64,000 bases of DNA. It comes from a virus. The notes under the pieces were generated by a model. The model saw only the letters and a list, made by a program, of their open reading frames with translations, was not told the origin of the DNA and ran no database searches. The first letter of the stretch is position 1; each line of letters opens with the position of its first letter. Location: positions 1 through 64,000 of IMG/VR virus record IMGVR_UViG_3300017528_000567. The stretch is one strand, 5' to 3'. Shown here in pieces: positions 1,524 through 42,628 of the stretch. The position numbers and the translations under genes are program-made.

Positions 1524-1590
1524 GGGGTCGGTGCCTTTCAAGAGGCCCGGACTTGTGCGCCGTGCCCTGTCACAGAGCTCGCCGCACAAG
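1524..1590 (-). promoter_or_regulatory. Conserved 5' leader of MRKIA module, copy 1
   Basis: About 60 bases before the ATG are shared with the leaders at 7655, 8270 and 9295: blocks CTCTGT, GGCACGGC, GTCCG(G)GCCTC and AAAGG in the same order and spacing. AAAGG lies 9-14 nt before the start and can act as ribosome binding site. The rest may be promoter or structured RNA. Confidence 0.6.
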
Positions 1591-1653
1591 TGGTTTACTG
1601 CCTGCTTGCTCCCGTTAGGAACGTGGCAGAAATCTTTATACATCCGCTGCGAT

Positions 1654-2853: not shown

Positions 2854-2927
2854 TGGACGCTCAAGGGCACATCGCCGCACGAGTCCTATGGCGATTCTCT
2901 GCGGCTTCGTGAAGACGGCCCGTGTGC

Positions 2928-2961
2928 TTGAAGTTTAGCCCCTGTCGATTGTCTTGAGGGC
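2928..2961 (+). promoter_or_regulatory. Leaderless promoter, TTGAAG/TTGTCT type
   Basis: TTGAAG at 2928-2933, 15-nt spacer, TTGTCT at 2949-2954, then 7 nt to the ATG at 2962. The identical geometry occurs at 4853-4886 (minus), 6106, 11556 and 13214. Expected transcription start coincides with the start codon. Confidence 0.75.
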
Positions 2962-3429
2962 ATGACCCAACAAATCACAACCAAGTCAGACGTTGCCCCG
3001 GCCCCGCGCACGGCGTATGCCACACCCGCTGAGAACATTGGCAAAGCCATTGACCTCCTGAACTACCTGCCAAACGGAGTGGCGGCGTGGGTCGAGGCAC
3101 ACGACGGCAATCAAGAGTTGGCTGAAGCAAACGGGGAGCAAATCAAGCAGCTCGTGAACCAACTGGGGGCGATTCTGGCCTCTATGCCAAGATCAGCGGT
3201 CTACAACGTGTACGGAGTAGGCGACAAAACCTTGACCTTCTCGAGCTCGGCAGAGTTGATCGCGGCAATGGCCGGCATGGGAATCAAACATGTTGGCTAC
3301 TCATCTAGGACATCACGCCTTCGCCCCGAGCTGAAAGGGCAACCCACATTCACGTCGCTCAACGGCCCCATGTACGACGGCGGAGGCAAGATCAGATATG
3401 AAGGCCGCGGTGTGGGCACCATGTACTAG
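2962..3429 (+). CDS. Hypothetical protein, 155 aa
   Basis: Not recognised. The N-terminal 20 residues are Ala/Pro/Thr rich and probably disordered. Residues about 23-115 look like a compact alpha/beta domain (ENIGKAIDLLNYLPNGVAAW, then alternating helices), and the C-terminus is Gly/Arg/Tyr rich (DGGGKIRYEGRGVG). No catalytic motif, cysteine or membrane segment is visible. It is preceded by one of the exact leaderless promoters, which fixes the start and suggests independent expression with the other genes of that class. It is convergent with the zincin operon at 3431, one base apart at their stops. Confidence 0.75.
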   Translation: MTQQITTKSDVAPAPRTAYATPAENIGKAIDLLNYLPNGVAAWVEAHDGNQELAEANGEQIKQLVNQLGAILASMPRSAVYNVYGVGDKTLTFSSSAELIAAMAGMGIKHVGYSSRTSRLRPELKGQPTFTSLNGPMYDGGGKIRYEGRGVGTMY

Positions 3430-3430
3430 G

Positions 3431-4297
3431 TCACAGTCGCAACGCCTTCAGCGCGGTGAACTTGTCCGGAGCCTTGGCCTTAAGATGGCCGGGCTCCAGT
3501 GCATAGCTCGCGAAGGACTCTGCGAAGTCTTCAATGTTTGGCTTGCTCTCCGCATAGTCAGAGATGAAAGGCGGCTGACCCCACGGCGGCGCGTTGAGGT
3601 CGACGTGGTGCCGCTCCTCAACACCATGCCCCAGCTCGTGAGTGATGTAGGTCGCCAAGACGTCGATACTAGGCACGTGCCCCTCTCGGAGCACTAGGCG
3701 CATTGTGCCTTGACCATCCCAAGAGGCGTCCTCTGAACCGCGGGCCTTGTTCGCCAGCAGTATCTTGCTCACGACGCCCATGGCGCGTTTTGCGGGCGCC
3801 TTGAGCTTTTTGAAGGCTCGGCTCCACAGCGCTATTAGCTCTGGTGCGTCCTTGCGGTGTTCGAGCGAGCCCTCGTAGGTGACGTTCTTCCCGGTGATTT
3901 TCTCGAGCTCGCGGCGGGCGTCGTAGAACGAGGCCTCCGGCTTGCTCTTCGGGGCTCGCGGCATTGCCACGTCTTTCAGCTCGGCGACCTGTGGCGGTTC
4001 GAGGCCCGACCAGCCCTCGAACCATTGGAACAGCTCGCCAACGGTCTTCGGGACGTCATACACGTCATTCGCCGCAATCTGTTTCAACCAGCTTTGCGTA
4101 CGGCGAATCGTCGACGTCCAGCCCCCGCGCCACTCGGACGTTTCGGAGGTGTTCTCCGCCTCCATGAACGCGATGAGCTTTTGCAGATAGGGGGCAGTGA
4201 CGGGCGCCGATTCGACAAACCGCGCCAGCACGGCGTGAGCAACGGAGTACATGTAGAGGGAGCTTGAAAAGACCTCTACCGACCCCGTTGGCATCAT
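3431..4297 (-). CDS. HELGH zincin metallopeptidase
   Basis: Predicted zinc metallopeptidase, 288 aa. HELGH at residues 220-224 gives two His ligands and the catalytic Glu. A downstream helix IEDFAESFASY (about 255-265) offers the acidic third ligand, as in gluzincin-type proteases. The N-terminus carries a short element AHAVLARFVESA (20-31) similar to tags on the proteins at 7076, 25105 and 26990. Residues 30-200 are helical without known motifs. Its ATG overlaps the stop of the upstream 104-aa gene (ATGA), so the two are translationally coupled. The substrate is unknown: processing of virion proteins or a host target are both possible. The architecture resembles the zincin at 26990. Confidence 0.75.
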   Translation of the reverse strand: MMPTGSVEVFSSSLYMYSVAHAVLARFVESAPVTAPYLQKLIAFMEAENTSETSEWRGGWTSTIRRTQSWLKQIAANDVYDVPKTVGELFQWFEGWSGLEPPQVAELKDVAMPRAPKSKPEASFYDARRELEKITGKNVTYEGSLEHRKDAPELIALWSRAFKKLKAPAKRAMGVVSKILLANKARGSEDASWDGQGTMRLVLREGHVPSIDVLATYITHELGHGVEERHHVDLNAPPWGQPPFISDYAESKPNIEDFAESFASYALEPGHLKAKAPDKFTALKALRL

Positions 4298-4608
4298 GCT
4301 CCTAGTCGCTCCCTGACCTGCTGCAGAACGCCGGTCTCCTCCCGCATCCACCGATCGAGGCGGCTGGTCTCAAAGCTGTCCACCGGCTCAGCTAAATAGG
4401 TGGTGGCCGGTCTAAACACAAAGGATAGACCTTCGGGAGAGGTGAGCTCCTCGGGCGCTTCGTAGGGGTCGTCACTCCCTACCCCGCGTAACTTCCAACC
4501 AAGCGCGCGTGCAACACTGACCCATGCAGACATGGAGGCAGGAGTTGCCTTGAGCACCTCTTTAAATATACCGACACCCGGAGACTGATTTTTGCGCTTC
4601 TTGGTCAT
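4294..4608 (-). CDS. Hypothetical protein, 104 aa, coupled to zincin
   Basis: Not recognised. Basic N-terminus (MTKKRKNQSP) then a helical region containing ASMSAWVSVARALGW, a short acidic turn and a C-terminal helix rich in Arg/Glu. Start chosen at the ATG giving MTKKRK; a longer in-frame reading (to 4698) would run across the stop and 3' end of the next upstream gene. Its stop overlaps the start of the zincin gene, which suggests a stoichiometric partner such as inhibitor, chaperone or substrate adaptor; that is inference from coupling only. Confidence 0.65.
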   Translation of the reverse strand: MTKKRKNQSPGVGIFKEVLKATPASMSAWVSVARALGWKLRGVGSDDPYEAPEELTSPEGLSFVFRPATTYLAEPVDSFETSRLDRWMREETGVLQQVRERLGA

Positions 4609-4636
4609 ACCGTGTCCCTCAATGTACGCTGCAATG

Positions 4637-4852
4637 CTAGTCAACGAGAGATTCGCCAACCTCAAGAATGTCGTAGCCGGTGGACTCGATTGCGGCACTC
4701 ATTGCGGCATCTACCGCCGCATCCTCCGAGCTCGCCAGTGCGACGCACCGAAACCTGGAGGGAAGATCCACCGCATGGATGGGACCGGCCTGGTCGCAGG
4801 TGGAGTCGCCCCAAGTGATATTGCGGAGAGTGACGGTATAACGCCGCGGCAT
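4637..4852 (-). CDS. Hypothetical protein, 71 aa
   Basis: Not recognised. A small, probably alpha/beta protein (PRRYTVTLRNITWG... then SRFRCVALASSEDAAVDAAM and a helix). The pattern of strands followed by an Ala-rich helix resembles the small protein at 13248, which also has the EDA.A.A.A helix. The ATG at 4852 is set by the exact leaderless promoter immediately upstream. It is the first gene of a three-gene minus-strand unit ending with the HELGH zincin (spacing 28 nt to the next start). Confidence 0.65.
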   Translation of the reverse strand: MPRRYTVTLRNITWGDSTCDQAGPIHAVDLPSRFRCVALASSEDAAVDAAMSAAIESTGYDILEVGESLVD

Positions 4853-4886
4853 GTCCTGAAGACAATCGACACGGGGCAAACTTCAA
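4853..4886 (-). promoter_or_regulatory. Leaderless promoter, TTGAAG/TTGTCT type (minus strand)
   Basis: On the minus strand TTGAAG (4886-4881), 15 nt, TTGTCT (4865-4860), 7 nt, ATG (4852). Spacing is identical to the plus-strand copies, so the motif follows the gene start, not the strand. Confidence 0.75.
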
Positions 4887-4905
4887 GGGCACCAGCTGGT
4901 CGTCG

Positions 4906-4927
4906 AGCTGGCGGAATGGACCCAGCT
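4906..4927. repeat. AATGGA-loop hairpin, copy 1 (diverged)
   Basis: AGCTGG / CCAGCT stem around CGGAATGGAC. It keeps the AATGGA core seen in the loops at 8909, 11387 and 15379. It lies between the divergent genes at 4852 and 5030. Confidence 0.4.
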
Positions 4928-4942
4928 TACGGGCTCGTCGCA

Positions 4943-4974
4943 AACCGTTTATGACACATCATGTGAAACGGGTT
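4943..4974. promoter_or_regulatory. Imperfect palindrome between divergent genes
   Basis: AACCGTTT and AAACGGGTT flank ATGACACATCATGTG, which itself contains CACAT/ATGTG. Position between divergent genes suggests an operator, but no regulator can be assigned. Confidence 0.3.
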
Positions 4975-5029
4975 ACGATGTGTGCACGAACGGCACTCCA
5001 ACAATCCTGTGGTAGAAATAGACAGACCC

Positions 5030-5725
5030 ATGACCTACGACTTTCGACGTGAGGCGTCGGACGCCAAGAAGGCACTCAAGGATCTCTACCTGTGGCTCCG
5101 CGGCAAGTACGATCAAGGGTATGGCAACCGTATGAGCCCTCAGCTTGAGGCCGGCCTGCGTGCGTTGGGTGTCGAGCCTGGTGATGAGCTGCCACGGCGT
5201 CCGTCCGGCGCGGTGCCACGTGCTCTGTACGATCTGGTAGTGATGGCTGGAGAGCACCACGTGTATGAGTCCGATCGCGAAGTGCTTCTTGAAGCTGCCA
5301 ACAAGGCGCTCGGCGGCAACGGCCACGAGCTACCGGGGGAAGCAGCGCCAAAGTCCTCATTCACTCGCAACAGCAAGTGTCCGAAATGCGGCAATCCCGG
5401 TCCTCACGAGGACAACGGGAAGAAGGGCCGCGATCAGGTGTTCTACTGCGACGAATGTGGCAAGGCGTTCGGCGGCACCATGATGAACCTGTCAGCTGCC
5501 GGTCGACCGGTCGCGACTTCCGATGGGGAGATCATGTTGGACCTGTACGATTTGACTGGTGACCATGAGCCGGTGTCGCTCGCTCAGTTCATTGCAGACA
5601 ACAGTGCCCCAGATGTGGCACCGCTGGACCTCCAAGACATTGCTGCGTTGCGTCGGCTCCGCGTCGGACAGCACGTTTACCTCGGGATTGGCGGCGGTGG
5701 CGTCAAGATCAAGCGCATCGGGTGA
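5030..5725 (+). CDS. Zinc-ribbon protein, 231 aa
   Basis: Unknown function. N-terminal 100 residues are helical (MTYDFRREASDAKKALKDLY...). A four-cysteine zinc ribbon follows: CPKC at 117-120 and CDEC at 140-143, separated by a Lys/Gly-rich loop. The C-terminal 80 residues include an acidic DLQDIAALRRLRVGQHVYLG segment, possibly a small beta domain. Zinc ribbons of this spacing bind nucleic acid or protein; which applies here cannot be told. I chose the ATG at 5030. A GTG at 4982 is in frame but adds 16 unconvincing residues. The first residues resemble those of the SprT-like protein (MTYD[YF]R), probably by chance. Confidence 0.7.
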   Translation: MTYDFRREASDAKKALKDLYLWLRGKYDQGYGNRMSPQLEAGLRALGVEPGDELPRRPSGAVPRALYDLVVMAGEHHVYESDREVLLEAANKALGGNGHELPGEAAPKSSFTRNSKCPKCGNPGPHEDNGKKGRDQVFYCDECGKAFGGTMMNLSAAGRPVATSDGEIMLDLYDLTGDHEPVSLAQFIADNSAPDVAPLDLQDIAALRRLRVGQHVYLGIGGGGVKIKRIG

Positions 5726-5826
5726 CCTGATTTCCCAGAAAGCTCGCAGAGGCTGGTCGGGATGGACTGCCTCGTGAATGACGCACTTGGTGTAGCCGTA
5801 GGCATGAGCCTCGCCTACACCAGACC

Positions 5827-5866
5827 TTGACATTCTTCCTGTCTTGGAAGTATCGAGAGTTATACA
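5827..5866 (+). promoter_or_regulatory. Sigma70-like promoter close to start codon
   Basis: TTGACA at 5827-5832, an 18-nt spacer to TATCGA at 5851, ATG at 5867. TATACA also directly precedes the ATG. No Shine-Dalgarno sequence is present, so the transcript would again be nearly leaderless. Confidence 0.4.
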
Positions 5867-6079
5867 ATGTACAATTCTCGAGCTAGTACGACCAAGCCGC
5901 TCCTTATCGAGGAAAACGTCCCGCCGAGACGCAAGCCAATCGACTGGGAGGTCTTGACTGCGGATGAGCTCGGCGACCTCGCGCGTCACGGCAAGGATAG
6001 TTCGACCAAGAACACCGCCCTCATGCATCTAGTCAAGCGAGCGAGCATCGTCGATCCGCACGTCCGCAAAACGGCCTAG
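5867..6079 (+). CDS. Hypothetical protein, 70 aa
   Basis: Not recognised. Short basic N-terminus with a Pro/Arg stretch (NVPPRRKPIDW) and a helical C-terminal half (EVLTADELGDLARHG...). No cysteines or membrane segment. Its start directly follows a TATACA box and a sigma70-like promoter, and its stop is about 45 nt before the next leaderless gene, so it is likely expressed on its own. Coding support rests on codon periodicity and a plausible promoter only. Confidence 0.55.
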   Translation: MYNSRASTTKPLLIEENVPPRRKPIDWEVLTADELGDLARHGKDSSTKNTALMHLVKRASIVDPHVRKTA

Positions 6080-6105
6080 AGCATGCGCGGAGCTCAGTGC
6101 TTGCC

Positions 6106-6139
6106 TTGAAGTTCGACCGTTGTCGATTGTCTCTCACGG
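6106..6139 (+). promoter_or_regulatory. Leaderless promoter, TTGAAG/TTGTCT type
   Basis: TTGAAG 6106-6111, 15-nt spacer, TTGTCT 6127-6132, 7 nt, then GTG at 6140. This copy drives a GTG start with the same geometry as the ATG-start copies. Confidence 0.75.
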
Positions 6140-6586
6140 GTGAGCAAGAGCTTGAAGAATCTCAGGGGGCTTCTGCCAGGTGGCTATGTTCGGGGAGAGA
6201 GGCTTAGCCTGGACCGTCTTGGCGACGCCCTGGCCGACGCAATCAACAGGATTGATCGGAGAGCCCGCTGTGTGGCTGAAGACGCCGGCCTGCCGGACCC
6301 CGCGCCGCGCTTCGGGCAAATCCTAGCCGACCTGCATGCGCTCTTGACTGGCGGTACGACCGGGGCGCGCAAGGCGGAAGTAGCAGCCGATCTCCTACAT
6401 GGAGAAGTTACGGGGACCACCCTAACCATCGGCAGCGTCACGCATGACATTGACTGGGTCGTGATGCGTGAAGTGACTGACCCGACAATCATCGTCGAGG
6501 ACGGCACGGTCATCTACCTGCGGAGCTGGGCCGACCACAGGGCCGCGCTGCTCAAGCTCGGCGCTGACCACGTCCCCGGGAGATAG
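6140..6586 (+). CDS. Hypothetical protein, 148 aa, GTG start
   Basis: Not recognised. N-terminal basic segment, then a helical region with LGDALADAINRIDRRARCVA and a C-terminal part with alternating strands (GTTLTIGSVTHDIDWVVMRE, TIIVEDGTVIYLRSW). It may be a two-domain protein with a C-terminal beta domain. Start is the GTG fixed by the leaderless promoter; no upstream ATG is available. It is convergent with the paralogous pair at 6680/7076, with a hairpin between. Confidence 0.7.
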   Translation: MSKSLKNLRGLLPGGYVRGERLSLDRLGDALADAINRIDRRARCVAEDAGLPDPAPRFGQILADLHALLTGGTTGARKAEVAADLLHGEVTGTTLTIGSVTHDIDWVVMREVTDPTIIVEDGTVIYLRSWADHRAALLKLGADHVPGR

Positions 6587-6600
6587 TCACCGGCTGGTGC

Positions 6601-6644
6601 CCGGATAGGCAGGGACTGGCGGCTCGTTCGCGAGCGCTGCCTAG
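6601..6644. repeat. GGATAGGCA hairpin, copy 2 (diverged loop)
   Basis: Begins CCGGATAGGCAGGGA like the other copies, but the right arm is CTGCCTAG at 6637-6644 after an inner GCTCG/CGAGC stem. It lies between convergent genes and may serve as a terminator. Confidence 0.45.
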
Positions 6645-6679
6645 CCTAGAATCCTGGAGAAGTCCTACCTGAGAGCAGG

Positions 6680-7072
6680 CTAGGTGCTCAACGTTTTGTA
6701 GATGGTTGACCAGAAATCTGCGACATCGTTGTCGTCGAGGTGGTGCTGGAGCTTGCCTGTGGGCGCAGTGTCCATGATGCGCTCAGACGTTCTACGCGAT
6801 TTGGGAATGCGTGACGCCACCACGGCAATGATCCGCGCCACCACTACAGGTGCACCCGGCACCTGCTCTCCCGCTCCGCGGCAAGCCTTCCGAAACTTCC
6901 GCAACTTCTGCGCGAAGCTCTTCTCATGAAGTTGGGTCTCCAGCGTGAGCCCATTCTTGTGAGCCAGGCGCTGTAGGCAGAACATGCTAAACGCATTTGC
7001 GAGGCTGGACTCTAGTTCGTTTTCCAGCGCGTTCTGTGCTTCTGGCAGTGGCTTCGCAAGTGCAACCCTCAT
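6680..7072 (-). CDS. Hypothetical protein, 130 aa, paralogue of neighbour
   Basis: Unknown function. Helical and basic. Its C-terminus (LQHHLDDNDVADFWSTIYKT) matches that of the upstream gene (LRVTLDDQDTAGFWTRVDET), and the middle sections share a basic YKAC/FRKAC motif. The two appear to be a tandem duplication that has diverged. It starts 3 nt after the stop of the gene at 7076, so they form one unit. No catalytic motif is seen. Possibly virion-associated like other tagged proteins here, but that is speculation. Confidence 0.7.
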   Translation of the reverse strand: MRVALAKPLPEAQNALENELESSLANAFSMFCLQRLAHKNGLTLETQLHEKSFAQKLRKFRKACRGAGEQVPGAPVVVARIIAVVASRIPKSRRTSERIMDTAPTGKLQHHLDDNDVADFWSTIYKTLST

Positions 7073-7075
7073 GAC

Positions 7076-7510
7076 CTACGGGATAGCACGTTCAGCGGCC
7101 ATGGTCTCATCGACGCGCGTCCAGAAACCTGCGGTGTCTTGGTCGTCCAACGTCACACGTAACTTGTTGATATCCGGGACCTTTTTAATGAACTCGCTGA
7201 CTGCCTTGCGACGAATTCGCTCATCCGCGCTCTTCACATCGGCAATTGTCTCCTGGACGGCCTTACCTCGATCGCTGAATCCTTGGATGGCGTGCTCCAT
7301 CGCGTTAGAGAACGCTGTCAACAGTTTTTTGACCTCGGTGTCCCATGCCGGAACCGAAGCCATGTACCCAGTCTTCCGACCTAGGCAAGCCTTGTAATAC
7401 TCCCGTAGTCCGCCTTTCAGGTGCTTGGCCAGGCCCGCTTTGTAAAGCACCCGATTGTGCGCCATCGCGAATAGGAATCGCCTCGTGATGCGCGTCGCCA
7501 AATCGTCCAT
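7076..7510 (-). CDS. Hypothetical protein, 144 aa, first of tandem pair
   Basis: Unknown function. The N-terminus MDDLATRITRRFLFAMA resembles the R-[VI]-x-x-R-[FY] tag of the proteins at 3431, 25105 and 26990. A basic helical region with EYYKACLGRK and a long amphipathic region (ETEVKK.. AMEHAIQGF) follow, then the LDDQDTAGFW end shared with the downstream paralogue. Whether the tag is functional is unknown. Directly upstream lies the remnant MRKIA module. Confidence 0.7.
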   Translation of the reverse strand: MDDLATRITRRFLFAMAHNRVLYKAGLAKHLKGGLREYYKACLGRKTGYMASVPAWDTEVKKLLTAFSNAMEHAIQGFSDRGKAVQETIADVKSADERIRRKAVSEFIKKVPDINKLRVTLDDQDTAGFWTRVDETMAAERAIP

Positions 7511-7555
7511 GTATTGCTCGCCGCCAATTCTCGTGTCGGTGCTAGTCTCTCACTG

Positions 7556-7654
7556 TCAGCCTCGCAGCAGGGCACTGGTGCCTTGTGCCGCTGTTCCAAG
7601 TGTTCTGAGCTGCAGCTCGAGCTCCAGTTCACTCGTATTGGCGATCTTGCGCAT
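7556..7654 (-). pseudogene. Decayed copy of MRKIA module (32 codons)
   Basis: Reads MRKIANTSELELELQLRTLG and then diverges to a TGA at 7556. Bases 7655-7735 keep the conserved leader of the MRKIA family almost intact. The copy has lost the rest of the module and any C-terminal domain. It either is a remnant or encodes a 32-residue peptide under the same control. The leader being better preserved than the coding part argues that the leader itself is, or recently was, useful. Confidence 0.55.
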
Positions 7655-7735
7655 GGGTCTGGGCGATCCTTTCGAGAGGCTCGGACTTGTGCGCCGTGCC
7701 CTTGTTACAGAGCTCGAACCACAAGTGCTTTACTG
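7655..7735 (-). promoter_or_regulatory. Conserved 5' leader of MRKIA module, copy 2
   Basis: Same ordered blocks as the leader at 1524 (CTCTGT, GGCACGGCGC, AAGTCCG, GCCTC, GAAAGG), including CGGCGCACAAGTCCG in both. This is the closest pair of the four leaders. Confidence 0.6.
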
Positions 7736-7768
7736 CGCAGAAACAACGACGCTAGCGTTGCCCCCAGC

Positions 7769-7783
7769 GGTGTAACAACCCAC
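7769..7783 (+). promoter_or_regulatory. GGTGTAA start-proximal motif
   Basis: GGTGTAA at 7769-7775, 8 nt before the ATG at 7784. No Shine-Dalgarno sequence. It belongs to the GGTGTA[GA]-N8/9-start group. Confidence 0.5.
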
Positions 7784-8260
7784 ATGGATGACATTCGGCC
7801 GCTCGGGTCCGTAGAAGTTAGATGCGCTTACCCAGGATGCAACTGGAGCTTCTGGGTAGATTGCCTGGACCCAAGGCTGCCCGTCGGGCCGTTTGATTGC
7901 GGGGCCGACCACCAAACGCAAGCGCGAGTCAACGCTGCCCTAGAGAAGCTAGACAATGCCGGCCTGGTCTATCAAACAGCCGCGGGACCTGGCTGTGGTT
8001 GCGGAGGGCCGACCCAAAAATCCGGGTGCGAGCCGCCTCCCGCGCAACCCCCTACGATGACGACCGGGTATCTGATGCTACGGCTGCGCGAACCGGACTT
8101 TGATGGGAGTCAAGAGATGTGGGCCGCGGGTCGATTTGCGTGGGCGACTTGGGCCTCTCTCGGCGATCTTGAGGCGCTTCCGTGCGACGCCGGGGCCTAT
8201 CATTGGATGCCCCTTGATGAGGCGAGTCGTAACCGCCCAGCGGGTTACACAGGCCCTTGA
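7784..8260 (+). CDS. Cys-rich hypothetical protein, 158 aa
   Basis: Not recognised. The first 45 residues contain Cys14, Cys19, Cys27, Cys39 and His43 around a Trp/Phe-rich beta stretch (CNWSFWVDC), compatible with a small zinc-binding domain. A second Cys/Gly cluster (GCGCGG near 70-75) and a Pro-rich linker precede a C-terminal region with several Trp residues (FAWATWASLG). Start chosen at the ATG after the GGTGTAA motif; the open frame extends upstream but there overlaps the leader of the opposite-strand module. Function unknown. Confidence 0.65.
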   Translation: MDDIRPLGSVEVRCAYPGCNWSFWVDCLDPRLPVGPFDCGADHQTQARVNAALEKLDNAGLVYQTAAGPGCGCGGPTQKSGCEPPPAQPPTMTTGYLMLRLREPDFDGSQEMWAAGRFAWATWASLGDLEALPCDAGAYHWMPLDEASRNRPAGYTGP

Positions 8261-8269
8261 GCCAAGAAA

Positions 8270-8337
8270 GCTCTTATCTGCTGCGCTCTGTGAAGGCACG
8301 GCTGAGGTCCGGCCTCAACCCAAGGGAGCCTTGACCG
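8270..8337 (+). promoter_or_regulatory. Conserved 5' leader of MRKIA module, copy 3
   Basis: Contains GCTCTGTGAAGGCACGG, AGGTCCGGCCTC and an AAGGGAG ribosome binding site before the ATG, in the family order. It follows the stop of the upstream gene by about 10 nt, so it acts inside a plus-strand unit. Confidence 0.55.
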
Positions 8338-8883
8338 ATGCGTAAGATCGCCAACACCCACGAGCTACAGGACGAGCTGCGGAAGCTCATCGCTTACACA
8401 GGGAGCAATAGGCCCTCTAGAGAACGCATTGCTCTAGAACTGAAGACCCTTTCAACTCGGCTCGCTTCTAGTGGAGGCCCGCTCCTGGACGCCAAGGTCG
8501 AGTGGGCGGTGGAGCTCGGTGAGCTCATGAAAGCACGATTCAGCGGCGTCGGCGGCTGGCGAGACCACCACATCAACATCGACATGCACCGCACAAACTC
8601 TGGATGCACTGTCAATCTAGAGAGCCCCCTTGGATGGACTAGCAACATCTATATCGAGATGGGCGAAGGCGAGCAGGCAGTCCATGTCTATTTCAATGTG
8701 TCAGAGCCCAAGGATACGCCCACGGGTGCAGACGGATTGCCCGACCTCGACGCCATTGACCTGACCGACCTGATCGGGAAACAGAAACGCGAAAGCTTCC
8801 CTATCAAGGACCGCGAGCCTATGGCCAAGGCGATGATGGCCGTGTCACTGTGGATCTCGAAGCAGATTCAAAGCGGCCGTTGA
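8338..8883 (+). CDS. MRKIA-module protein 2 (181 aa)
   Basis: Unknown function. Residues 1-43 are the shared module (MRKIANTHELQDELRKLIAY, PSRERIALELKTLSTRLA). The rest is a different domain: a strand-rich part (INIDMHRTNSGCTVNLES...) with several conserved-looking aromatic residues, then an acidic stretch (LPDLDAIDLTDLIG) and a C-terminal helix. Signs of a modular gene family are the same leader, the same first exon-like module and an unrelated C-terminus. A perfect AATGGA-loop hairpin follows the stop. Confidence 0.75.
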   Translation: MRKIANTHELQDELRKLIAYTGSNRPSRERIALELKTLSTRLASSGGPLLDAKVEWAVELGELMKARFSGVGGWRDHHINIDMHRTNSGCTVNLESPLGWTSNIYIEMGEGEQAVHVYFNVSEPKDTPTGADGLPDLDAIDLTDLIGKQKRESFPIKDREPMAKAMMAVSLWISKQIQSGR

Positions 8884-8908
8884 CGTCGCTCTGCAGCGCG
8901 ACGCTAAC

Positions 8909-8940
8909 CGGATAGGCAGGGAATGGACCCTGCTTATCCG
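8909..8940. repeat. AATGGA-loop hairpin, copy 3
   Basis: CGGATAGGCAGGG / CCCTGCTTATCCG, 13 pairs with one G.U, around the loop AATGGA. It lies between convergent genes, 25 nt after the plus-strand stop. No T-run on either side. Confidence 0.6.
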
Positions 8941-8946
8941 TCTGTA

Positions 8947-9294
8947 TCAGTTGCCTGTGTCTGCTGTGATCAACCAGATCAATTTTCCGAAGACATCGTC
9001 CAGTTCGGTGACAACAGTTGCGAATTTCCGCACGGCAATTTTTGTGTCAGCGCTGAGTCCGCGACTCCCCATCAGTCCGCGGGCGACCTTCTTCACTTGT
9101 TCTATTGGCCCTTCAATACTGGCGACCAAGCGTCCCTCGTCAGTCAGCTCAGCCGTATGCTCGCCGGCAACGCGGGCACGGAGAGACTCGAGCTCGCTGG
9201 CGAGCCGAGAACGGGATGGTTTATCGGTCTGAGCATAGGCAAGCAGGCGGCGCAGCTCGATCTCAAGTTCATCGGCATCGGCAATCTTACGCAT
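8947..9294 (-). CDS. MRKIA-module protein 3 (115 aa)
   Basis: Unknown function. The module is again present at the N-terminus (MRKIADADELEIELRRLLAY, PSRSRLASELESLRARVAGE). The C-terminal 70 residues are helical and amphipathic (IEGPIEQVKKVARGLMG.., FATVVTELDDVFGKLIWLIT) and unrelated to the other two members. A long open frame exists on the opposite strand but lacks any start signal and disrupts the conserved module, so the minus-strand reading is preferred. Confidence 0.75.
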   Translation of the reverse strand: MRKIADADELEIELRRLLAYAQTDKPSRSRLASELESLRARVAGEHTAELTDEGRLVASIEGPIEQVKKVARGLMGSRGLSADTKIAVRKFATVVTELDDVFGKLIWLITADTGN

Positions 9295-9360
9295 TGGTCT
9301 GGCACCTTTCTAGAGTGGAGGCCGGACCTCAACGCCGTGCCTTCAAAAGGCGCGCTCGAT
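9295..9360 (-). promoter_or_regulatory. Conserved 5' leader of MRKIA module, copy 4
   Basis: GAAGGCACGGCGTTGAGGTCC, GGCCTC and AAAGG in the family order, AAAGG 11 nt before the ATG at 9294. Confidence 0.55.
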
Positions 9361-9394
9361 AAGTGGTTGCTCGACGGCCTGCCTATCCAAGATG

Positions 9395-9577
9395 TCATCG
9401 CTTGCGCTTCTTCGCTTGCGGCGTAGGCGCAAGCGACTCCATCCGTTCGGCACGCTCCACCAAAGCCTCTGCCACTGCGTCAGGTGGTAACCCGGTCAAT
9501 TCACCGAGCATCGCGAAATATGCCCCGTCAGGGAGGTCGTCGTCGACAATGAGTAGGGCCGTCGCGATGTCCATCAT
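9395..9577 (-). CDS. Small hypothetical protein, 60 aa
   Basis: Not recognised. Sequence is acidic in the first half (DIATALLIVDDDLPDGAYFA), then a helix (PPDAVAEALVERAERME), and ends in a strongly basic tail AKKRKR. Such charge segregation suggests a protein or nucleic-acid binding peptide. It stands alone on its strand; the next same-strand gene upstream is far away, so it needs its own promoter. A GGTGTAG motif 9 nt before the ATG is the only visible signal. Confidence 0.55.
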   Translation of the reverse strand: MMDIATALLIVDDDLPDGAYFAMLGELTGLPPDAVAEALVERAERMESLAPTPQAKKRKR

Positions 9578-9593
9578 GGGAAGGCTCTACACC
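9578..9593 (-). promoter_or_regulatory. GGTGTAG start-proximal motif
   Basis: GGTGTAG on the minus strand (9593-9587), 9 nt before the ATG at 9577. The gene is isolated, so this region must hold its promoter or translation signal. Confidence 0.5.
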
Positions 9594-9701
9594 GACACGC
9601 AGCCAGGCGTAAAGCCCAGGGGCTCAAGGTCAGCTGCCGATTCGCCACGTGGGCGCGACGCGGCTCATTCGCCGCGGGTTTTGGCCTCCTTTGCGAACGG
9701 C

Positions 9702-9772
9702 TTGAAGTTTCGCTCTGGCCAAGACGTATTTGCAGGAACCGCCTGATATCAGGAACGAGAGGGTCAGACGTC
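9702..9772 (+). promoter_or_regulatory. Variant TTGAAG promoter with longer leader
   Basis: CTTGAAGTTT (9701-9710) matches the upstream half of the leaderless promoters. No TTGTCT follows at 15 nt; CGTATT or TATTTG lies 17-19 nt away. A leader of about 35 nt with GGAACGAGAGGG then precedes the GTG at 9773. It could be a canonical-spacing relative. Confidence 0.4.
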
Positions 9773-11311
9773 GTGACCAAGAAGAAGCCGCCGAACCCCA
9801 ACCCGCAAAAGGCAGAGCTAGACGGATTGGTTTTCATCCTCCGAAATGGGAGATACGAGGTGGAGTTGCCCCACCCGTTCCGACCAGGTAGACATTGGCA
9901 CACCCAGAAGTTCGAGACTCGAGCCAGCGATTTGCAGGAAGCCCGGCGTATCGCTGGTGTCCGTTGCCAAGCTGACGTCGAGCTCGCCGCGCTCGTCGAT
10001 GATGAGGAGGCCAGCCGCCGTCTGGAAGTGCGGGACAAGGTAATCGGCGCCCTGCTCCGCCATTCCTACGGGAGCCTGCCAGCAGTCGAATCTATTCGTT
10101 CTAAAGTGGTCGAGAAGTGGCTGCGGACCATCGAGTCGTTTTCGATCGACCCCTTCACGGCAGTCCAGACCGTTCCGATCGTATTCCCGCCAGATGTGCC
10201 AGGCTCGTGGAAGCCGCCACGTCCGCTCGCATACTGGATGTCCCGCAAGGGTGCCCAAAGCATGCAAGCGCAGGAGACGTACCTCCACACTCAGCGGAGG
10301 ACGACATACAGCAGCGACGTGTTGGACTTCAGTAGCGTGTTGGCCACGTGCGATGAGGAAACCGGCTGGGGTTACGGTGCGAAACTCAAGGGCGTGTCGG
10401 AGACGGTCCATCTACTGGCCCGAGCCCGCAAGAGTCGTGAACTACTAGCGCGCGTCTTCCTACGTGCCTCCCTCCACAACACGATCGTGCGCTTTCGCCT
10501 CTCTGAGGATCCAAACGCCCCCCAACGTCGTCTAGACAACCGGCGGTATCCTGAGACTCCCTACCATGTCGAGTCGGACGACGGTGAGCTTGTCCTGGCC
10601 CTCGCCGGCCTTTGTGGCGAAGACCCGTGGCATCATGCGAGCAAGCAAACATTGCCCGACGTGATGGTTTCGCACGGCGAAAACTACCTTACCAGTTTCC
10701 GGTCCAACGATCATCGCCTTGACAACAGCCGGCAGCGCGAGATTACGGTCCGCAGCCTCAGCGAGCTGGTTGAACTGCTCGCAGTTGAGCACGCCCGGGT
10801 GATTGCCCAGCACGTTGTGGTCCTCTTCGTGGACGAGCAGAACCCAGACCCAGACCTGGAACTCTCCCCATACGGACACGAGGAAAGGCGGCCAGTCCTC
10901 CCGCCTCGTGAACCGCCTTCACGGGATGAGCGCCTACTAGAGATCAAGGCAGACCTGTTCGACGAGCTGAAGAAGTCACCCGCCCTGCAGGCGCAAGCTC
11001 GGAAGCGGATGAAGGATCGCCCCAAGCCGCAACCGCCGAAAGCTGACCCGACGCCCCCAGCCGAGCCGCCCAGCGGTAGCCCTCAAGAGGATCACGAGCT
11101 CCGTGCGGTCGATGCGACCGCGCAAGCAGTCACCGCCTCGGTTGAACCCCCTGCCGAGCTCAAAGCCACCCCGGCCTCAGTTCAAGCGCCCCGTCAGCCG
11201 CGTCGCCACGCTTCGGTCGAGAAGGTGCAGCCCATGGCCAAGACGTACAGCTATCTCGAGAAGCTCAAGGCCCGGAAGCGCAAGCGAACTAACCCACAGG
11301 AGACGACATGA
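9773..11311 (+). CDS. Large hypothetical protein, 512 aa
   Basis: Not recognised. The first 75 residues contain a short beta-rich section (FILRNGRYEVELPHPF, HWHTQKFETRASDLQEARR) that resembles the AP2/integrase-type DNA-binding fold in pattern only. The middle (80-380) is mixed alpha/beta with no visible catalytic motif. Residues 385-512 are low-complexity Pro/Ala/Lys and end in a basic tail (EKLKARKRKRTNPQ), so the C-terminus is probably disordered and may bind nucleic acid. GTG start preceded by a GGAACGAGAGGG ribosome site. A 20-codon frame overlaps the stop as ATGA but is too short to call. Confidence 0.7.
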   Translation: MTKKKPPNPNPQKAELDGLVFILRNGRYEVELPHPFRPGRHWHTQKFETRASDLQEARRIAGVRCQADVELAALVDDEEASRRLEVRDKVIGALLRHSYGSLPAVESIRSKVVEKWLRTIESFSIDPFTAVQTVPIVFPPDVPGSWKPPRPLAYWMSRKGAQSMQAQETYLHTQRRTTYSSDVLDFSSVLATCDEETGWGYGAKLKGVSETVHLLARARKSRELLARVFLRASLHNTIVRFRLSEDPNAPQRRLDNRRYPETPYHVESDDGELVLALAGLCGEDPWHHASKQTLPDVMVSHGENYLTSFRSNDHRLDNSRQREITVRSLSELVELLAVEHARVIAQHVVVLFVDEQNPDPDLELSPYGHEERRPVLPPREPPSRDERLLEIKADLFDELKKSPALQAQARKRMKDRPKPQPPKADPTPPAEPPSGSPQEDHELRAVDATAQAVTASVEPPAELKATPASVQAPRQPRRHASVEKVQPMAKTYSYLEKLKARKRKRTNPQETT

Positions 11312-11386
11312 GTCACCCCGGAGCTCGCATGAGGGGGTGCCCCTCTTGGGATCATCTCGTGTTTCCCTAGACATGCAATTGGCAGG

Positions 11387-11426
11387 TAACCGGATAGGCA
11401 TGGAATGGACCTTGCCTATCCGGTTA
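11387..11426. repeat. AATGGA-loop hairpin, copy 4 (longest)
   Basis: TAACCGGATAGGCATGG / CCTTGCCTATCCGGTTA, 16 of 17 pairs, loop AATGGA. The flank GCACCCCCTGAAAGT (11427-11441) recurs in reverse complement beside the copy at 15379. Region 11312-11589 holds this element and the next promoter, and no convincing gene. Confidence 0.65.
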
Positions 11427-11555
11427 GCACCCCCTGAAAGTCTGGAAAGTCTGTACGGGCGCGACGTGGCCTTGGCTGTGCACGCGGAGTCGCCTACCTA
11501 CGATGAGCTGTACAGCGGGAGTTGGGTGCATGCCGCGTAGTGCCCCCAGATTAGC

Positions 11556-11589
11556 TTGAAGTTTCGGGCCGCTCGTTTGTATCTACGGC
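11556..11589 (+). promoter_or_regulatory. Leaderless promoter, TTGAAG/TTGTAT type
   Basis: TTGAAG 11556-11561, 15-nt spacer, TTGTAT 11577-11582, 7 nt, ATG at 11590. One base differs from the TTGTCT consensus. Confidence 0.7.
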
Positions 11590-13200
11590 ATGGGCAAGCG
11601 AAAGTATAGGACACGGGAAGAGTGGCATGCGGACTTGCGGCAGGTGTGCGCCAGCAAGAACTGGGAGATAGTTGGCAATCTCCCGGACGCGGCGAAGCAA
11701 AAGTTGACCCTGCGCTGCAAAAACCACGAGAAAGGTGTCGATGCGCCGGAGGGCTACTACGAATGGCATCCGGTGCCGGGGGATATCTTTCAGGGTAAAG
11801 GGTGCCGCCTCTGTTCTGGTGTCGCTCCATTGACGAACGCCCAAGTCGCGTTCTCGGCTAGCCAGGTAGGATTGACACTGTTTCCCCAGTCTCAGCGAGT
11901 GACGAACAATAGGGCTTCCCTCCAGTTTCAGTGCAATGAGTGCAGCGACGTTCGACGGTATATCGTATGTAACGTTCGTAACGGGCAAGGCTGCAAACCG
12001 TGCGCTGATAAGAGGAACGGTCTGTCCCGTCGAATCCCAAGAGCTACGATAGTTGCCCGGCTTGCTGTTCACCGACTCAAGTTCGTCAGCGTGGCGCATC
12101 CCGATGGTGATGATGCGCACGTCACCTATACATGTCGGTTCGGCCACATTCATACACAGGTGCTGCACACACTAAAGAAGAGCAAAGGGTGCGCGATTTG
12201 TAGCGTCTTGCCGCGCCGCGAGACGGTACTGAGACAGATTCTCGAATACCTCACGGGGTTCAAGTGGCCGAAGCAGAGAGTCGCCTGGTTGCTAAGCCCG
12301 AAGCGCCGCAAGCTAGAGCTTGACGGCTACTGTAAGGAGGTTGGGTGCGCTTTCGAGCACCAAGGGGAACAACACTACAAATTTGTGGCTCTCTGGAGCA
12401 AATGCCAAAACTACGACCAGTTGAAAGTCGCGGGCTGTCGCGCCGAGGGGGTCAAACTCCTAGTTACTGATGAGAAAGGCTACGATAAAGCCGAGAAGAT
12501 GGGCGGGACGGCGGGCCTCGTGCGTTGGGTAGCTCGGCTACTTGCGGATTTGAACGTACCGATGCGACCAAACCCAGGCCAGTTTAGACTCGAATTCAAC
12601 AGTACAACGGCGGAAGCGCGCACGAGAGAATGTCATGAGTTTGCCAAAGCCAATGACGGCAAGTTCTTGGACCCGGTATGCATCGCAGCCTTAGCAATGA
12701 ATCGCTGGCTCTGTGCGACTCACGGGAAGTTCGAGAGAAGCTTGACCGACATGAAGACAAACAAGAGCTGGTGCCCGAAATGCGGCCGTGAGCTATCTGG
12801 TGAAGCTAGACGCAAACCATTTGTGACACTCTCCGGCTTTCGTAAAGAGTGCAGGCGCATAGGCGTTCGGAGCAGAGACACGTATACGCAGGCTAAGAAG
12901 TCTGGGGCGTTCCAGGTCTTGGCACCGGTAGACGTGATAGATTACTACAAGCTCCCACTGAGCAAGCTATTCCAAAAATCCAGCATGCATGGCGACCCTT
13001 GGCAGTACACGGATGAGCACGACGATCCCGCCGACCTGAAGGACCACCCGAATGCGAAGATTCGGCGCCTCTCGTCGGGGAGGCTCCGTCGTGCCGTGGC
13101 CCTGCCCAAGAAGCAGCCCAAGGTCCCTGCCAACGACAACGTTGATGCACTGGCCGACCGCTTGAACGCTATCTACAGCGGGCGCGAGATCCCCGACTGA
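11590..13200 (+). CDS. Multi-zinc-finger PD-(D/E)XK-like nuclease A
   Basis: Predicted zinc-finger nuclease, 536 aa. Four treble-clef-like fingers are visible: C43/H46/C72/C75; C115/C118/C135/C138; C182/H186/C201/C204; and C375/H378/C395/C398. Between fingers 3 and 4 sits a restriction-endonuclease-fold motif: LELDGY (Asp245), then FEHQGEQHY (Glu256, Gln258), then YDQLKVAGC..EGVKLLV. This layout fits VSR/EDxHD-like or homing-type nucleases that carry DUF4379-type zinc repeats; assignment is by motif, not by search. The paralogue at 13448 keeps Asp245, Glu256 and Gln258 at the same residue numbers. Likely roles are DNA cleavage of rival phage or host DNA, or self-spread as a free-standing homing gene. 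It is transcribed from its own leaderless promoter. Confidence 0.7.
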   Translation: MGKRKYRTREEWHADLRQVCASKNWEIVGNLPDAAKQKLTLRCKNHEKGVDAPEGYYEWHPVPGDIFQGKGCRLCSGVAPLTNAQVAFSASQVGLTLFPQSQRVTNNRASLQFQCNECSDVRRYIVCNVRNGQGCKPCADKRNGLSRRIPRATIVARLAVHRLKFVSVAHPDGDDAHVTYTCRFGHIHTQVLHTLKKSKGCAICSVLPRRETVLRQILEYLTGFKWPKQRVAWLLSPKRRKLELDGYCKEVGCAFEHQGEQHYKFVALWSKCQNYDQLKVAGCRAEGVKLLVTDEKGYDKAEKMGGTAGLVRWVARLLADLNVPMRPNPGQFRLEFNSTTAEARTRECHEFAKANDGKFLDPVCIAALAMNRWLCATHGKFERSLTDMKTNKSWCPKCGRELSGEARRKPFVTLSGFRKECRRIGVRSRDTYTQAKKSGAFQVLAPVDVIDYYKLPLSKLFQKSSMHGDPWQYTDEHDDPADLKDHPNAKIRRLSSGRLRRAVALPKKQPKVPANDNVDALADRLNAIYSGREIPD

Positions 13201-13213
13201 GGCAGCGTATCCC

Positions 13214-13247
13214 TTGAAGTTTGGCCCCCGCCGATTGTCTTTACGGT
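13214..13247 (+). promoter_or_regulatory. Leaderless promoter, TTGAAG/TTGTCT type
   Basis: TTGAAG 13214-13219, 15-nt spacer, TTGTCT 13235-13240, 7 nt, ATG 13248. It starts a two-gene unit made of the 67-aa protein and nuclease B. Confidence 0.75.
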
Positions 13248-13451
13248 ATGACCCAAGTAGCCCTCAAGACGACGCCCACCCTGGAGTTTGTGCTCAAGGT
13301 CGACGGCGAGTACGCCATCGGGATCGAGGCGGCAAGCATCGAGGACGCTCAAGCCTTGGCACTGGCCGATGAGTGGCTGGAGCAGCGCTCTGCGCGCCTC
13401 GTAGAGGTCGGCAACGACAACAACCAGCTCGACTTCGTGGTGGGGCGATGA
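13248..13451 (+). CDS. Small protein coupled to nuclease B, 67 aa
   Basis: Not recognised. Probably a beta-alpha-beta mini domain: strands LEFVLKVDGEYAIGIEA, a helix EDAQALALADEWLEQR, and a last strand RLVEVGNDNNQLDFVV. It is acidic. The pattern resembles the 71-aa protein at 4637. Its stop overlaps the ATG of nuclease B (ATGA), so the two are made together. That pairing is what one expects of an immunity protein, inhibitor or specificity partner; there is no direct evidence for which. ATG set by the leaderless promoter. Confidence 0.7.
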   Translation: MTQVALKTTPTLEFVLKVDGEYAIGIEAASIEDAQALALADEWLEQRSARLVEVGNDNNQLDFVVGR

Positions 13452-15013
13452 GTCACGGAAGGACAATCGAAGAATGGCAAGAGGATGTGCGGAAGATCCT
13501 CAAGAAGAACAACTGCAAGCTAGTCAGCGCGCTGCCATCCAGAATCGATCACGAATTGACGGCGCGTTGCTGCAACCACGAGGAAGGGCCGGACGCGCCA
13601 CTCGGTTATTACGAGTGGCCCACGACGCCAGCCCGGCTGTTCAAGGGCAAAGGCTGTCCGCTCTGCAGTAAACGTGCGCCACTGACGCGGGCACGAATAC
13701 TGGCGTCGGCTAGTCAGGTACACTTGACTCTAGATCCCGTGTCCCAGGATATTCCCGACGGTATCTCCAACACGAACTACCTCGACTTCAGGTGTGACAA
13801 CTGCGGCGTGACTAAACCGCACAGAATAGGAAATATCCGCACCGGCCACGGCTGCAAGAACTGCGCATCCGTTACCATTGGCGAGGCCCGTCGAATCACA
13901 GATGAAGAACTGATTGATTGGCTTGCGTGCGACGACCTCACGCTGATAAGCCGGGAATTTCGCAAGGGGATCGCCTATGTCAAGTTCGGCTGCCGACGCG
14001 GGCACACGCCTACGCAGCCCTGGGGTGTCGTGAGCCGCGGCAATGGCTGCCCGGATTGCGCGATGATGCCGCACGGTGAGACGGTGACGCGACAGCTCTT
14101 CGAGTACCTCACCGGCTTCACGTGGACGAAGGACAGGGTCAGTTGGATGCGGAGCGACTTGGGCAATCCGCTAGAGCTTGACGGATACAATGAGGAGCGT
14201 CGGTGCGGTTTCGAGTTCCAAGGGGAGCAGCATGATGTAGACAACGGCTATTTCCCACGCGCCAAGTACGACCACCTAAAGGTCGAGGGGTGCCGCAAGC
14301 AAGGCGTCACGCTAGTCATCGTGCTCAAGAAAGACTATGACGCGGCGAAGAAGAGTGGTGGCCAAGAAGGGTTATTGCTGTGGGCAATCGGCCTACTCAA
14401 GGCGGCTGGCATACCAATGCTGGCAAACCCAGGCCGGCTGGTGCTCAAACTCAATACGCCCCGAAGTGACGCACTGACCATCGAAGCCAATGCGCTCGCC
14501 GAAGCCAAGGGCGGTGAGTTCGTGGATGATGTCTGCACCGAGGCTGAAGCCGAGCACAACTGGCGCTGCAAGGATCACGGGACGTTCAAGAGAAGCCTGA
14601 GTGTGATGAAGCAACGGGAGTTCTTCTGTCCGTACTGCGGTGGAGAGCAACGCGCTGAAAACCGACGGTTGGAGTATGCGACCATCTCCGTGATCCGCAG
14701 GGAATTTCGCCGGCTAGGTCTTCAGAATGAACGTGAAGTTGCGAAGGCTCGGGACGCAGGAGATTTCGGTGAGATTGTGGTGCCATCGGCCTTGCAGATC
14801 TACCTCGACCTTACGCCCAACCAGGTGTTCCAAAAAACCACCAAGCTGGGCGAGCCCTGGCAATATATCGACGAGCACGATAACCCCGCCGATCTCGCAC
14901 TCCACCCGAGGCGTTACAGCACCCCGATCCACTTGGGGAAGGGCCGAGAAGCCAAGAAGCCGAACAAGCGGTCGCCGGGCGCGGTCTCAAGGCCTGAGCC
15001 GACGGTAGGCTAG
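13448..15013 (+). CDS. Multi-zinc-finger PD-(D/E)XK-like nuclease B
   Basis: Paralogue of the protein at 11590, 521 aa, colinear over nearly the whole length. Fingers are at C41/H44/C70/C73, C116/C119/C136/C139, C182/H186/C201/C204 and a fourth WRCKDHGTF...CPYC. The nuclease-like motif is LELDGY (Asp245), FEFQGEQHD (Glu256, Gln258) and YDHLKVEGC..QGVTLVIV. The shared C-terminal block (FQK.....G.PWQY.DEHD.PADL) is also kept. Unlike nuclease A, it is translationally coupled to a small upstream protein. Two divergent copies kept side by side suggest different specificities. The frame is open upstream to 13373, but the ATGA overlap is the natural start. Confidence 0.7.
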   Translation: MSHGRTIEEWQEDVRKILKKNNCKLVSALPSRIDHELTARCCNHEEGPDAPLGYYEWPTTPARLFKGKGCPLCSKRAPLTRARILASASQVHLTLDPVSQDIPDGISNTNYLDFRCDNCGVTKPHRIGNIRTGHGCKNCASVTIGEARRITDEELIDWLACDDLTLISREFRKGIAYVKFGCRRGHTPTQPWGVVSRGNGCPDCAMMPHGETVTRQLFEYLTGFTWTKDRVSWMRSDLGNPLELDGYNEERRCGFEFQGEQHDVDNGYFPRAKYDHLKVEGCRKQGVTLVIVLKKDYDAAKKSGGQEGLLLWAIGLLKAAGIPMLANPGRLVLKLNTPRSDALTIEANALAEAKGGEFVDDVCTEAEAEHNWRCKDHGTFKRSLSVMKQREFFCPYCGGEQRAENRRLEYATISVIRREFRRLGLQNEREVAKARDAGDFGEIVVPSALQIYLDLTPNQVFQKTTKLGEPWQYIDEHDNPADLALHPRRYSTPIHLGKGREAKKPNKRSPGAVSRPEPTVG

Positions 15014-15034
15014 TAGGCGGGGCGTATCGATGCG

Positions 15035-15068
15035 CTAAAGTCTCGGCTAATTGGTGTACTTACTAGGC
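15035..15068 (+). promoter_or_regulatory. Degenerate leaderless promoter candidate
   Basis: CTAAAG sits exactly where TTGAAG is expected (15035-15040), with GTACTT at the -10 position and 7 nt to the ATG at 15069. Weak match, same geometry. Confidence 0.3.
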
Positions 15069-15296: not shown

Positions 15297-15312
15297 GCGA
15301 GTAGAGGCAATT

Positions 15313-15355
15313 GGAAAAAGGCGGGGCGTGCGGTGTCGCCGTCCCGCCTTTTTCC
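15313..15355 (+). terminator. Intrinsic terminator
   Basis: Perfect 13-bp inverted repeat GGAAAAAGGCGGG / CCCGCCTTTTTCC. The A/T ends of the stem supply the U-run. It ends the plus-strand unit that includes the winged-helix gene. Confidence 0.75.
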
Positions 15356-16126: not shown

Positions 16127-16141
16127 GGTGTAGCCCCGTGA
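16127..16141 (+). promoter_or_regulatory. GGTGTAG start-proximal motif
   Basis: GGTGTAG at 16127-16133, 8 nt before the GTG at 16142, between two codirectional genes. Confidence 0.45.
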
Positions 16142-25072: not shown

Positions 25073-25087
25073 GGGACCTTCTACACC
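25073..25087 (-). promoter_or_regulatory. GGTGTAG start-proximal motif
   Basis: GGTGTAG (25087-25081) and AAGGTCCC before the ATG at 25072; spacer 8 nt. Here AAGG could also act as a weak Shine-Dalgarno sequence. Confidence 0.45.
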
Positions 25088-26970: not shown

Positions 26971-26985
26971 AGCCCTAGCTACACC
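26971..26985 (-). promoter_or_regulatory. GGTGTAG start-proximal motif
   Basis: GGTGTAG (26985-26979), 8 nt before the clpX ATG and only 5 nt after the stop of the upstream gene. Confidence 0.5.
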
Positions 26986-30200: not shown

Positions 30201-30216
30201 GCGCCGGCTCTACACC
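30201..30216 (-). promoter_or_regulatory. GGTGTAG start-proximal motif
   Basis: GGTGTAG (30216-30210), 9 nt before the GTG at 30200, immediately after the upstream stop. Confidence 0.45.
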
Positions 30217-33228: not shown

Positions 33229-33244
33229 GCCGGCCAATTACACC
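33229..33244 (-). promoter_or_regulatory. GGTGTAA start-proximal motif
   Basis: GGTGTAA (33244-33238), 9 nt before the ATG at 33228, directly after a terminator. TGTAAT within it is one base from a consensus -10 box. Confidence 0.5.
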
Positions 33245-42612: not shown

Positions 42613-42628
42613 CGTGGGCAGCTACACC
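42613..42628 (-). promoter_or_regulatory. GGTGTAG start-proximal motif
   Basis: GGTGTAG (42628-42622), 9 nt before the SNF2 ATG, in the 25-nt gap after the giant structural gene. No Shine-Dalgarno sequence. Confidence 0.5.

Follow-up and report, generated by a model that had tools for sequence, protein, structure and literature searches.

Putative leaderless promoters of bipartite and single-element form in a jumbo phage record and its relatives

The 64,000-nucleotide stretch of viral DNA analysed here (the window) makes up the first 64 kb of the 255,478-bp IMG/VR record IMGVR_UViG_3300017528_000567 (G000), which, judging from homologues of a baseplate wedge protein, a major head protein, terminase and portal, is from a jumbo tailed phage. 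Five genes of the window carry the element TTGAAG-N15-TTGT[CA]T-N7-[AG]TG. From comparisons of sequence we think it probable that these five sites serve a jumbo phage as leaderless promoters, that they represent the bipartite form of a family-wide promoter programme, and that they are read by host polymerase with a phage sigma factor. Host core RNA polymerase carrying the phage sigma factor would bind an element centred on TGT[AC], transcription would begin at or within about one base of the start codon, and ribosomes would initiate on the 5'-terminal AUG or GUG without a Shine-Dalgarno sequence. The lineage-specific bipartite form would be CTTGAAGTTT-N13-TGTCT-N7-start, and the common form of the programme a single -10-like element, [CT]GGTGTA[AG]-N8/9-start. 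The programme would mainly serve early or middle genes outside the virion block, and the best candidates for a sigma factor reading either promoter form are the products of 239284-240117(-) and 240147-241112(-).

The original prediction placed the bipartite arrangement at five genes on both strands, and all five sites are present with exact spacings of 15 and 7 nucleotides (nt); the hexamer pattern spans 2928-2954(+), 4860-4886(-), 6106-6132(+), 11556-11582(+, with TTGTAT) and 13214-13240(+). The motif had been expected to stand out from shuffled sequence, and the pattern with its start codon gave five matches in 255,478 bp, all of them at these sites, and none in 60 simulated first-order Markov sequences, for which the mean without the start codon was 0.07. 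A position weight matrix built from the five sites scored them at 33-43 bits, the next best position, 228539(-), at 22.4 and the best position of a reversed control at 11.5. Conservation extends beyond the two hexamers to a block of about 28 bp with a C-rich spacer (CTTGAAGTTT...CGATTGTCT, also written CTTGAAGTT...GATTGTCT), and similarity among the sites ends at or just past the start codon, the upstream flanks being completely different. The 10-mer CTTGAAGTTT has six copies in the record, four at the reported sites and two at 9701(+) and 247342(-). These two weaker copies and the one at 228539(-), which is separated by 22 nt from an ATG that has AAGG ahead of it, are farther from start codons and followed by leaders, two of the three with a Shine-Dalgarno-like sequence. 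Since the element occurs at leaderless distance and also with leaders, a promoter is favoured over a translation signal. Three of the sites are unchanged in a close relative, G001, but the two records diverge by just 1.4%, so this comparison is uninformative on conservation. The missing Shine-Dalgarno sequences, to which the original prediction also appealed, are not special in G000: about half of its crudely called genes lack one as well, and we therefore dropped this argument.

The leaderless architecture is well supported computationally and appears to reach far past the five genes, through two further classes, GGTGTAR and CTAGAGTTY. The motif GGTGTA[AG] emerged among the words that are overrepresented ahead of the relatives' genes, and it keeps a strikingly constant distance from the start codon. 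When an ATG or GTG opening an open reading frame (ORF) of at least 40 codons was counted at each distance from the motif, independently of gene calls, distances 8 and 9 stood alone, with 23 of 59 copies in G000 (1.4 expected), 24/73 in G002, 25/107 in G004, 39/149 in G010 and 32/81 in G012; in G006, an out-of-sample genome fetched afterwards, the count was 40 of 137 (2.9 expected, P about 1e-33). GGTGTA[AG]-N8/9-[AG]TG is thus found at 23-40 genes per record in G000 and five relatives, while permuted-motif controls stayed near background; ATG and GTG are enriched at the motif distance and TTG is not. The class has no conserved -35 element, and a Shine-Dalgarno sequence precedes 24 of its 183 genes, compared with about half of other genes. 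Beside it, the five bipartite sites are a minor variant. GGTGTAR sites are scarce in the virion block, the limits of which we drew from synteny and head and tail matches (9 of 143 sites over five records, P 0.003-0.13 per record). This depletion and the accessory setting of the five sites favour an early or middle programme, and the early regulon originally proposed agrees with both.

Back-to-back GGTGTAR motifs (TACACC...GGTGTA), about 10-50 bp apart, were observed in G010 (77548/77595, 81815/81843 and 103136/103164), G012 (137864/137886) and G004 (306174/306182), and would drive divergent pairs of leaderless genes. The record has 38 predicted tRNA genes at about 200-231 kb, and some GGTGTAR leaderless sites, e.g. 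207579(-) and 210685(-), lie directly after tRNA genes.

The second class, CTAGAGTTY-N13-TGTARTA, is bipartite and occurs 11 times in G010 and 10 times in G012, the spacing being identical in 20 of these 21 sites. Mostly a start codon follows the -10-like element after 5-6 nt; the others have leaders, several with a Shine-Dalgarno sequence. Measured from TGT, the start codon is 12-13 nt away in this form; the corresponding figure is 12 nt for the five window sites and 13-14 nt for GGTGTAR sites. A -10-like element precedes the start codon by a constant interval of about 7-8 nt (N7 in five of five sites; distance 8-9 for GGTGTAR in six records). The sigma factor gp36 of phage phiEco32 recognises a single element, tAATGTAtA, and transcription starts 6-8 bp downstream of it (PMC8948821); with this offset, transcripts of all three classes would begin on the start codon, give or take about one base. 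The five-site element is, by this geometry, a local form of a putative bipartite leaderless promoter whose sequence would have drifted between lineages with its geometry kept. A third bipartite variant, a TTGTAATAC element with an upstream TTTTA[AG]..TT motif, was seen in G004, partly with leaders (261738, 260669, 291401, 298557, 299984, 301355 and 286347).

A genome search for a sigma factor, proposed along with the original prediction, turned up two diverged sigma-like genes in tandem. Weak matches to sigma region 2 were obtained at syntenic positions of G004, G006 and G010, the corresponding G000 gene being 240147-241112(-). The adjoining gene, 239284-240117(-), is likewise sigma-like, and the two lie side by side in each of the seven genomes in which the pair was detected, with identities as low as about 33-38%. 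Among the NCBIfam matches listed for 10 proteins, 22 of 23 are to sigma-factor models, most of them weak, with the regions in the right order. The best were those of one ortholog to TIGR02985 (E 7.6e-7; 29.5 bits against a cut-off of 126.4) and PRK12519 (E 4.5e-5); PF04542 scored 11.7-15.5 bits against a cut-off of 24, and TIGR02937 11.5-17.5 against 42.9. In the first protein of the pair, the halves of region 2 are matched separately, apparently because an insertion of over 100 residues parts them. The tandem genes are probable highly diverged sigma factors, which makes the phage sigma factor of the original prediction plausible, and we infer its link to this motif. It is possible, and we put it forward with less than even confidence, that two co-evolving leaderless designs (GGTGTAR and CTNGARTTT...TGTNT) run the early/middle programme of the family, each read by one of the tandem diverged sigma factors on host polymerase. 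Sigma70_r4 matches at 164282-164428 and in its orthologs were rejected as sigma factors, these being helix-turn-helix proteins without a region 2 match.

Several results weigh against leaderless promoters read by a phage sigma factor. The exact TTGAAG form is not above chance in 14 relatives and was not found in the distant ones, neither G002 nor G006 showed a recognisable bipartite counterpart, and the GGTGTAR sites of the most diverged relative, G011 (2 of 11), are not convincing. All sigma matches fall under the curated cut-offs, with a single ortholog at E<1e-4; AlphaFold, given four sequences, returned poor models (pLDDT, the predicted local distance difference test, of 47 and 67) for which Foldseek found no match in the PDB, and hhalign comparisons with a two-sequence RpoE/FecI alignment and with phiEco32 gp36 (E 0.37-0.43) were not significant. 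Moreover, unless a phage sigma factor is packaged, early genes are transcribed before any has been made, and some of the promoters must then be read by host holoenzyme. In a scan of IMG/VR for the exact pattern there was one match per contig among the matches listed, which looks like chance.

The need of early genes for a host-readable promoter agrees with another explanation, in which the leaderless promoters are read by a primary or alternative host sigma factor, the two sigma-like genes of the phage having a role elsewhere or not encoding sigma factors. TTGA-type -35-like and T-rich -10-like elements at a workable distance, as well as the weak sigma assignment of the tandem genes, are in line with this. 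However, both elements are off the sigma70 consensus: TTGAAG-N15-TTGTCT does not match TTGACA-N16-18-TATAAT, its spacer being 15 and its -10-like hexamer lacking the key A, and the relatives replace the -35 and -10 elements together (CTAGAGTTT...TGTARTA); reading by a standard sigma factor is not supported. The joint change of the two elements and a main class without any -35 fit co-evolution with a phage factor, and we consider reading by a host sigma factor rather unlikely. TGAAGT-N16-TGTC presumably resembles extracytoplasmic-function promoters (-35 TGAAAC, -10 CGTC), a lead only.

The short fixed distance to the start codon, with no other anchor, could also point to a translational or RNA-level element within a longer mRNA, such as the start-associated sequence (SAS) of Cluster K mycobacteriophages, which is likewise confined to non-structural regions (PMC3203893). 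Unlike SAS, the element has no anti-Shine-Dalgarno complementarity; copies occur farther upstream of starts with leaders of their own, 5 of the 11 bipartite sites in G010 have no start codon at leaderless distance, several of these having Shine-Dalgarno leaders, and TTG starts are not enriched. We regard such an element as improbable. Still less credible is a recent spread of a single mobile cassette to the five sites, which would make them alike by descent and not by function. Sites 4 and 5 do lie in an island missing from G001, ahead of paralogous nuclease genes, but most of the genes that follow the five sites are unrelated to one another, the flanks upstream of the sites differ entirely, and a cassette is mostly refuted because similarity does not extend beyond the 28 bp and the start codon.

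The proposed leaderless promoters can be compared with several known systems. T4-like late promoters (TATAAATA) consist of a short -10-like element without a -35 element, are read via the phage sigma subunit gp55 and form an AT-rich late class; unlike them, the elements described here avoid virion genes and differ in sequence. As in phiEco32 and 7-11, phage sigma factors (here sigma candidates) would work with host RNA polymerase on non-sigma70 promoters, and single-element and bipartite designs are both found here. The GGTGTAR class resembles the gp36 promoters in having a single TGTA-containing element upstream of several genes, and the 7-11 sigma factor gp47 uses a bipartite promoter with 16-nt spacing, a difference from gp36 that the authors tie to region 4 (PMC8948821). 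There, phiEco32-like promoters serve middle/late or late genes in smaller phages (phiEco32, 77.5 kb) and no leaderless design is reported in the text searched (PMC8948821), whereas here the candidates are tandem, more diverged and in jumbo phages, and the sites coincide with start codons.

Mycobacterial leaderless genes share with those described here a fixed -10-like element upstream of ATG or GTG and the lack of a Shine-Dalgarno sequence; their start codon is the mapped transcript start, whereas here that start is predicted, and their -10 element is indistinguishable from that of ordinary genes, whereas here it is TGTCT or TGTAR (PMC4633059). SAS is similar in being a repeated non-palindromic sequence a few nt before the start codons of non-structural genes; it reads GGGATAGGAGCCC, its AGGAG core pairs with 16S rRNA, and its distance from the start codon is 3-7 nt (PMC3203893). 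No GGGATAGGAGCCC with AGGAG is present in the five aligned sites. The phiKZ and AR9 phages, with multisubunit RNA polymerases, are likewise jumbo phages with their own promoter specificity, and the 5' untranslated regions of AR9 measure 26-491 nt (PMC5312081, PMC7598289). In contrast to these phages, a beta-prime RNA polymerase gene (PF04998) was absent in 8 records, while it was matched in all 14 control genomes; a single-subunit phage RNA polymerase was not seen among the families of four Pfam lists, three of them limited to 25 families, small ORFs and nine stretch-spanning genes having been left out. Jumbo phages without their own polymerase often encode sigma factors, according to two reviews (PMC13282480, PMC7824862) in which the word leaderless does not occur. 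A search of the openly licensed literature, where absence is weak evidence, returned only AR9 for leaderless jumbo-phage promoters and no phage promoter paper for GGTGTAA.

Leaderless messages in phages are usually described as scattered exceptions. Here, in each of at least six related jumbo-phage records, the same start-codon-anchored promoter is predicted for dozens of genes, and, if this is true, leaderless initiation would be a built-in expression strategy. It yields direct predictions of start codons, transcript starts and the sigma pair for a phage group that is little known, with few annotated genes and no cultured member found here.

Table 1. Predicted promoter sites and associated genes in the window.
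Feature	Position	Strand	Remarks
Bipartite promoter site 1 (putative)	2927..2954	+	CTTGAAGTTTAGCCCCTGTCGATTGTCT, 7 nt before ATG 2962; unchanged in G001
Bipartite promoter site 2 (putative)	4860..4887	-	CTTGAAGTTTGCCCCGTGTCGATTGTCT, 7 nt before ATG 4852
Bipartite promoter site 3 (putative)	6105..6132	+	CTTGAAGTTCGACCGTTGTCGATTGTCT, 7 nt before GTG 6140
Bipartite promoter site 4 (putative)	11555..11582	+	CTTGAAGTTTCGGGCCGCTCGTTTGTAT, 7 nt before ATG 11590; in island absent from G001
Bipartite promoter site 5 (putative)	13213..13240	+	CTTGAAGTTTGGCCCCCGCCGATTGTCT, 7 nt before ATG 13248; island shared with site 4
Possible related promoter-like site	9701..9728	+	CTTGAAGTTTcgctctggccaagaCGTATT; leader to GTG 9773, GAGG Shine-Dalgarno
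Putative leaderless gene, 155 amino acids	2962..3429	+	no Pfam match
Putative leaderless gene, 71 amino acids	4637..4852	-	overlapped downstream by ORF 4294-4659
Putative leaderless gene, 148 amino acids	6140..6586	+	GTG start
Putative leaderless gene, 536 amino acids	11590..13200	+	zinc-ribbon/endonuclease-like; paralogue of 13487-15013
Putative leaderless gene, 67 amino acids	13248..13451	+	followed by 13487-15013 (508 amino acids)
GGTGTAG-N9-ATG	5815..5821	-	42-codon ORF
GGTGTAA-N8-ATG, putative leaderless promoter site	7769..7775	+	158-codon ORF
GGTGTAG-N9-ATG	9587..9593	-	60-codon ORF
GGTGTAG-N8-GTG	16127..16133	+	365-codon ORF 16142-17239
GGTGTAG-N8-ATG	25081..25087	-	277-codon ORF 24239-25072
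GGTGTAG-N8-ATG	26979..26985	-	418-codon ORF 25714-26970
GGTGTAG-N9-GTG	30210..30216	-	185-codon ORF 29643-30200
GGTGTAA-N9-ATG	33238..33244	-	516-codon ORF 31678-33228
GGTGTAG-N9-ATG	42622..42628	-	590-codon ORF 40840-42612

The genes behind the five sites had been described as accessory, comprising unknowns and nucleases. Their accessory positions hold, but the gene at site 5 is the short one of 67 residues, and the nuclease-like ORF lies downstream of it. That ORF and 11590-13200 form a paralogous zinc-ribbon/endonuclease-like pair inside the island absent from G001.

G000 has a GC content of 58.6%, and its further homologues include a family A DNA polymerase, a DnaB-like helicase, ribonucleotide reductase, GroEL, RtcB and histidine kinases. 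Its first 17 kb hold accessory genes on mixed strands; the remainder of the record, starting at about 17 kb, has nearly all its genes on the minus strand. G001 is 98.3-98.6% identical to G000 across the first 9.6 kb and lacks the island 9594-15363, having a 1.2-kb replacement in its place. The metagenome that yielded G000 also contains a second contig, G016, which overlaps G000 on the right and by extrapolation continues for about 9 kb beyond it. The distant relatives G002, G004, G006, G010, G011 and G012 share 55-75% of a conserved virion-like protein. Because the 398-kb G010 is syntenic with G000 in circular permutation, G000 most likely represents part of a larger genome, of about 400 kb, truncated at the start of a gene, and with relatives of up to about 400 kb, further sites may exist beyond its left end. 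Roughly 140 kb present in G010 are absent from G000. The independent assemblies of G000 and G001 have an identical first base (window position 1 and the right end of G001), at an ATG, which suggests gene-boundary trimming or a true terminus. Megablast and tblastn searches against named phages gave almost no matches, and no relative was found in the genome contigs searched for a host of G000.

Two families of repeats were also observed. A near-palindromic hairpin, CCGGATAGGCA[TG]GGAATGGACC[AT]TGCCTATCCG, is found at 8905-8940, 11387-11422 and 15373-15408 of the window and near 9679, 10271 and 10861 in the G001 counterpart, between gene modules and near the points where the variable island 9594-15363 joins its flanks. 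The hairpin may act as a terminator or mark a boundary of recombination or of a cassette. A short coding segment is repeated at window 1481-1601, 7612-7736 and 9251-9371 and at 209033-209153 of the record, with up to 83% DNA identity across 111 bp, in different accessory genes and at the 209-kb locus. In the 64-144 kb part of the record, one protein matches Pfam Volactin (E 3e-72), an actin homologue described from archaea.

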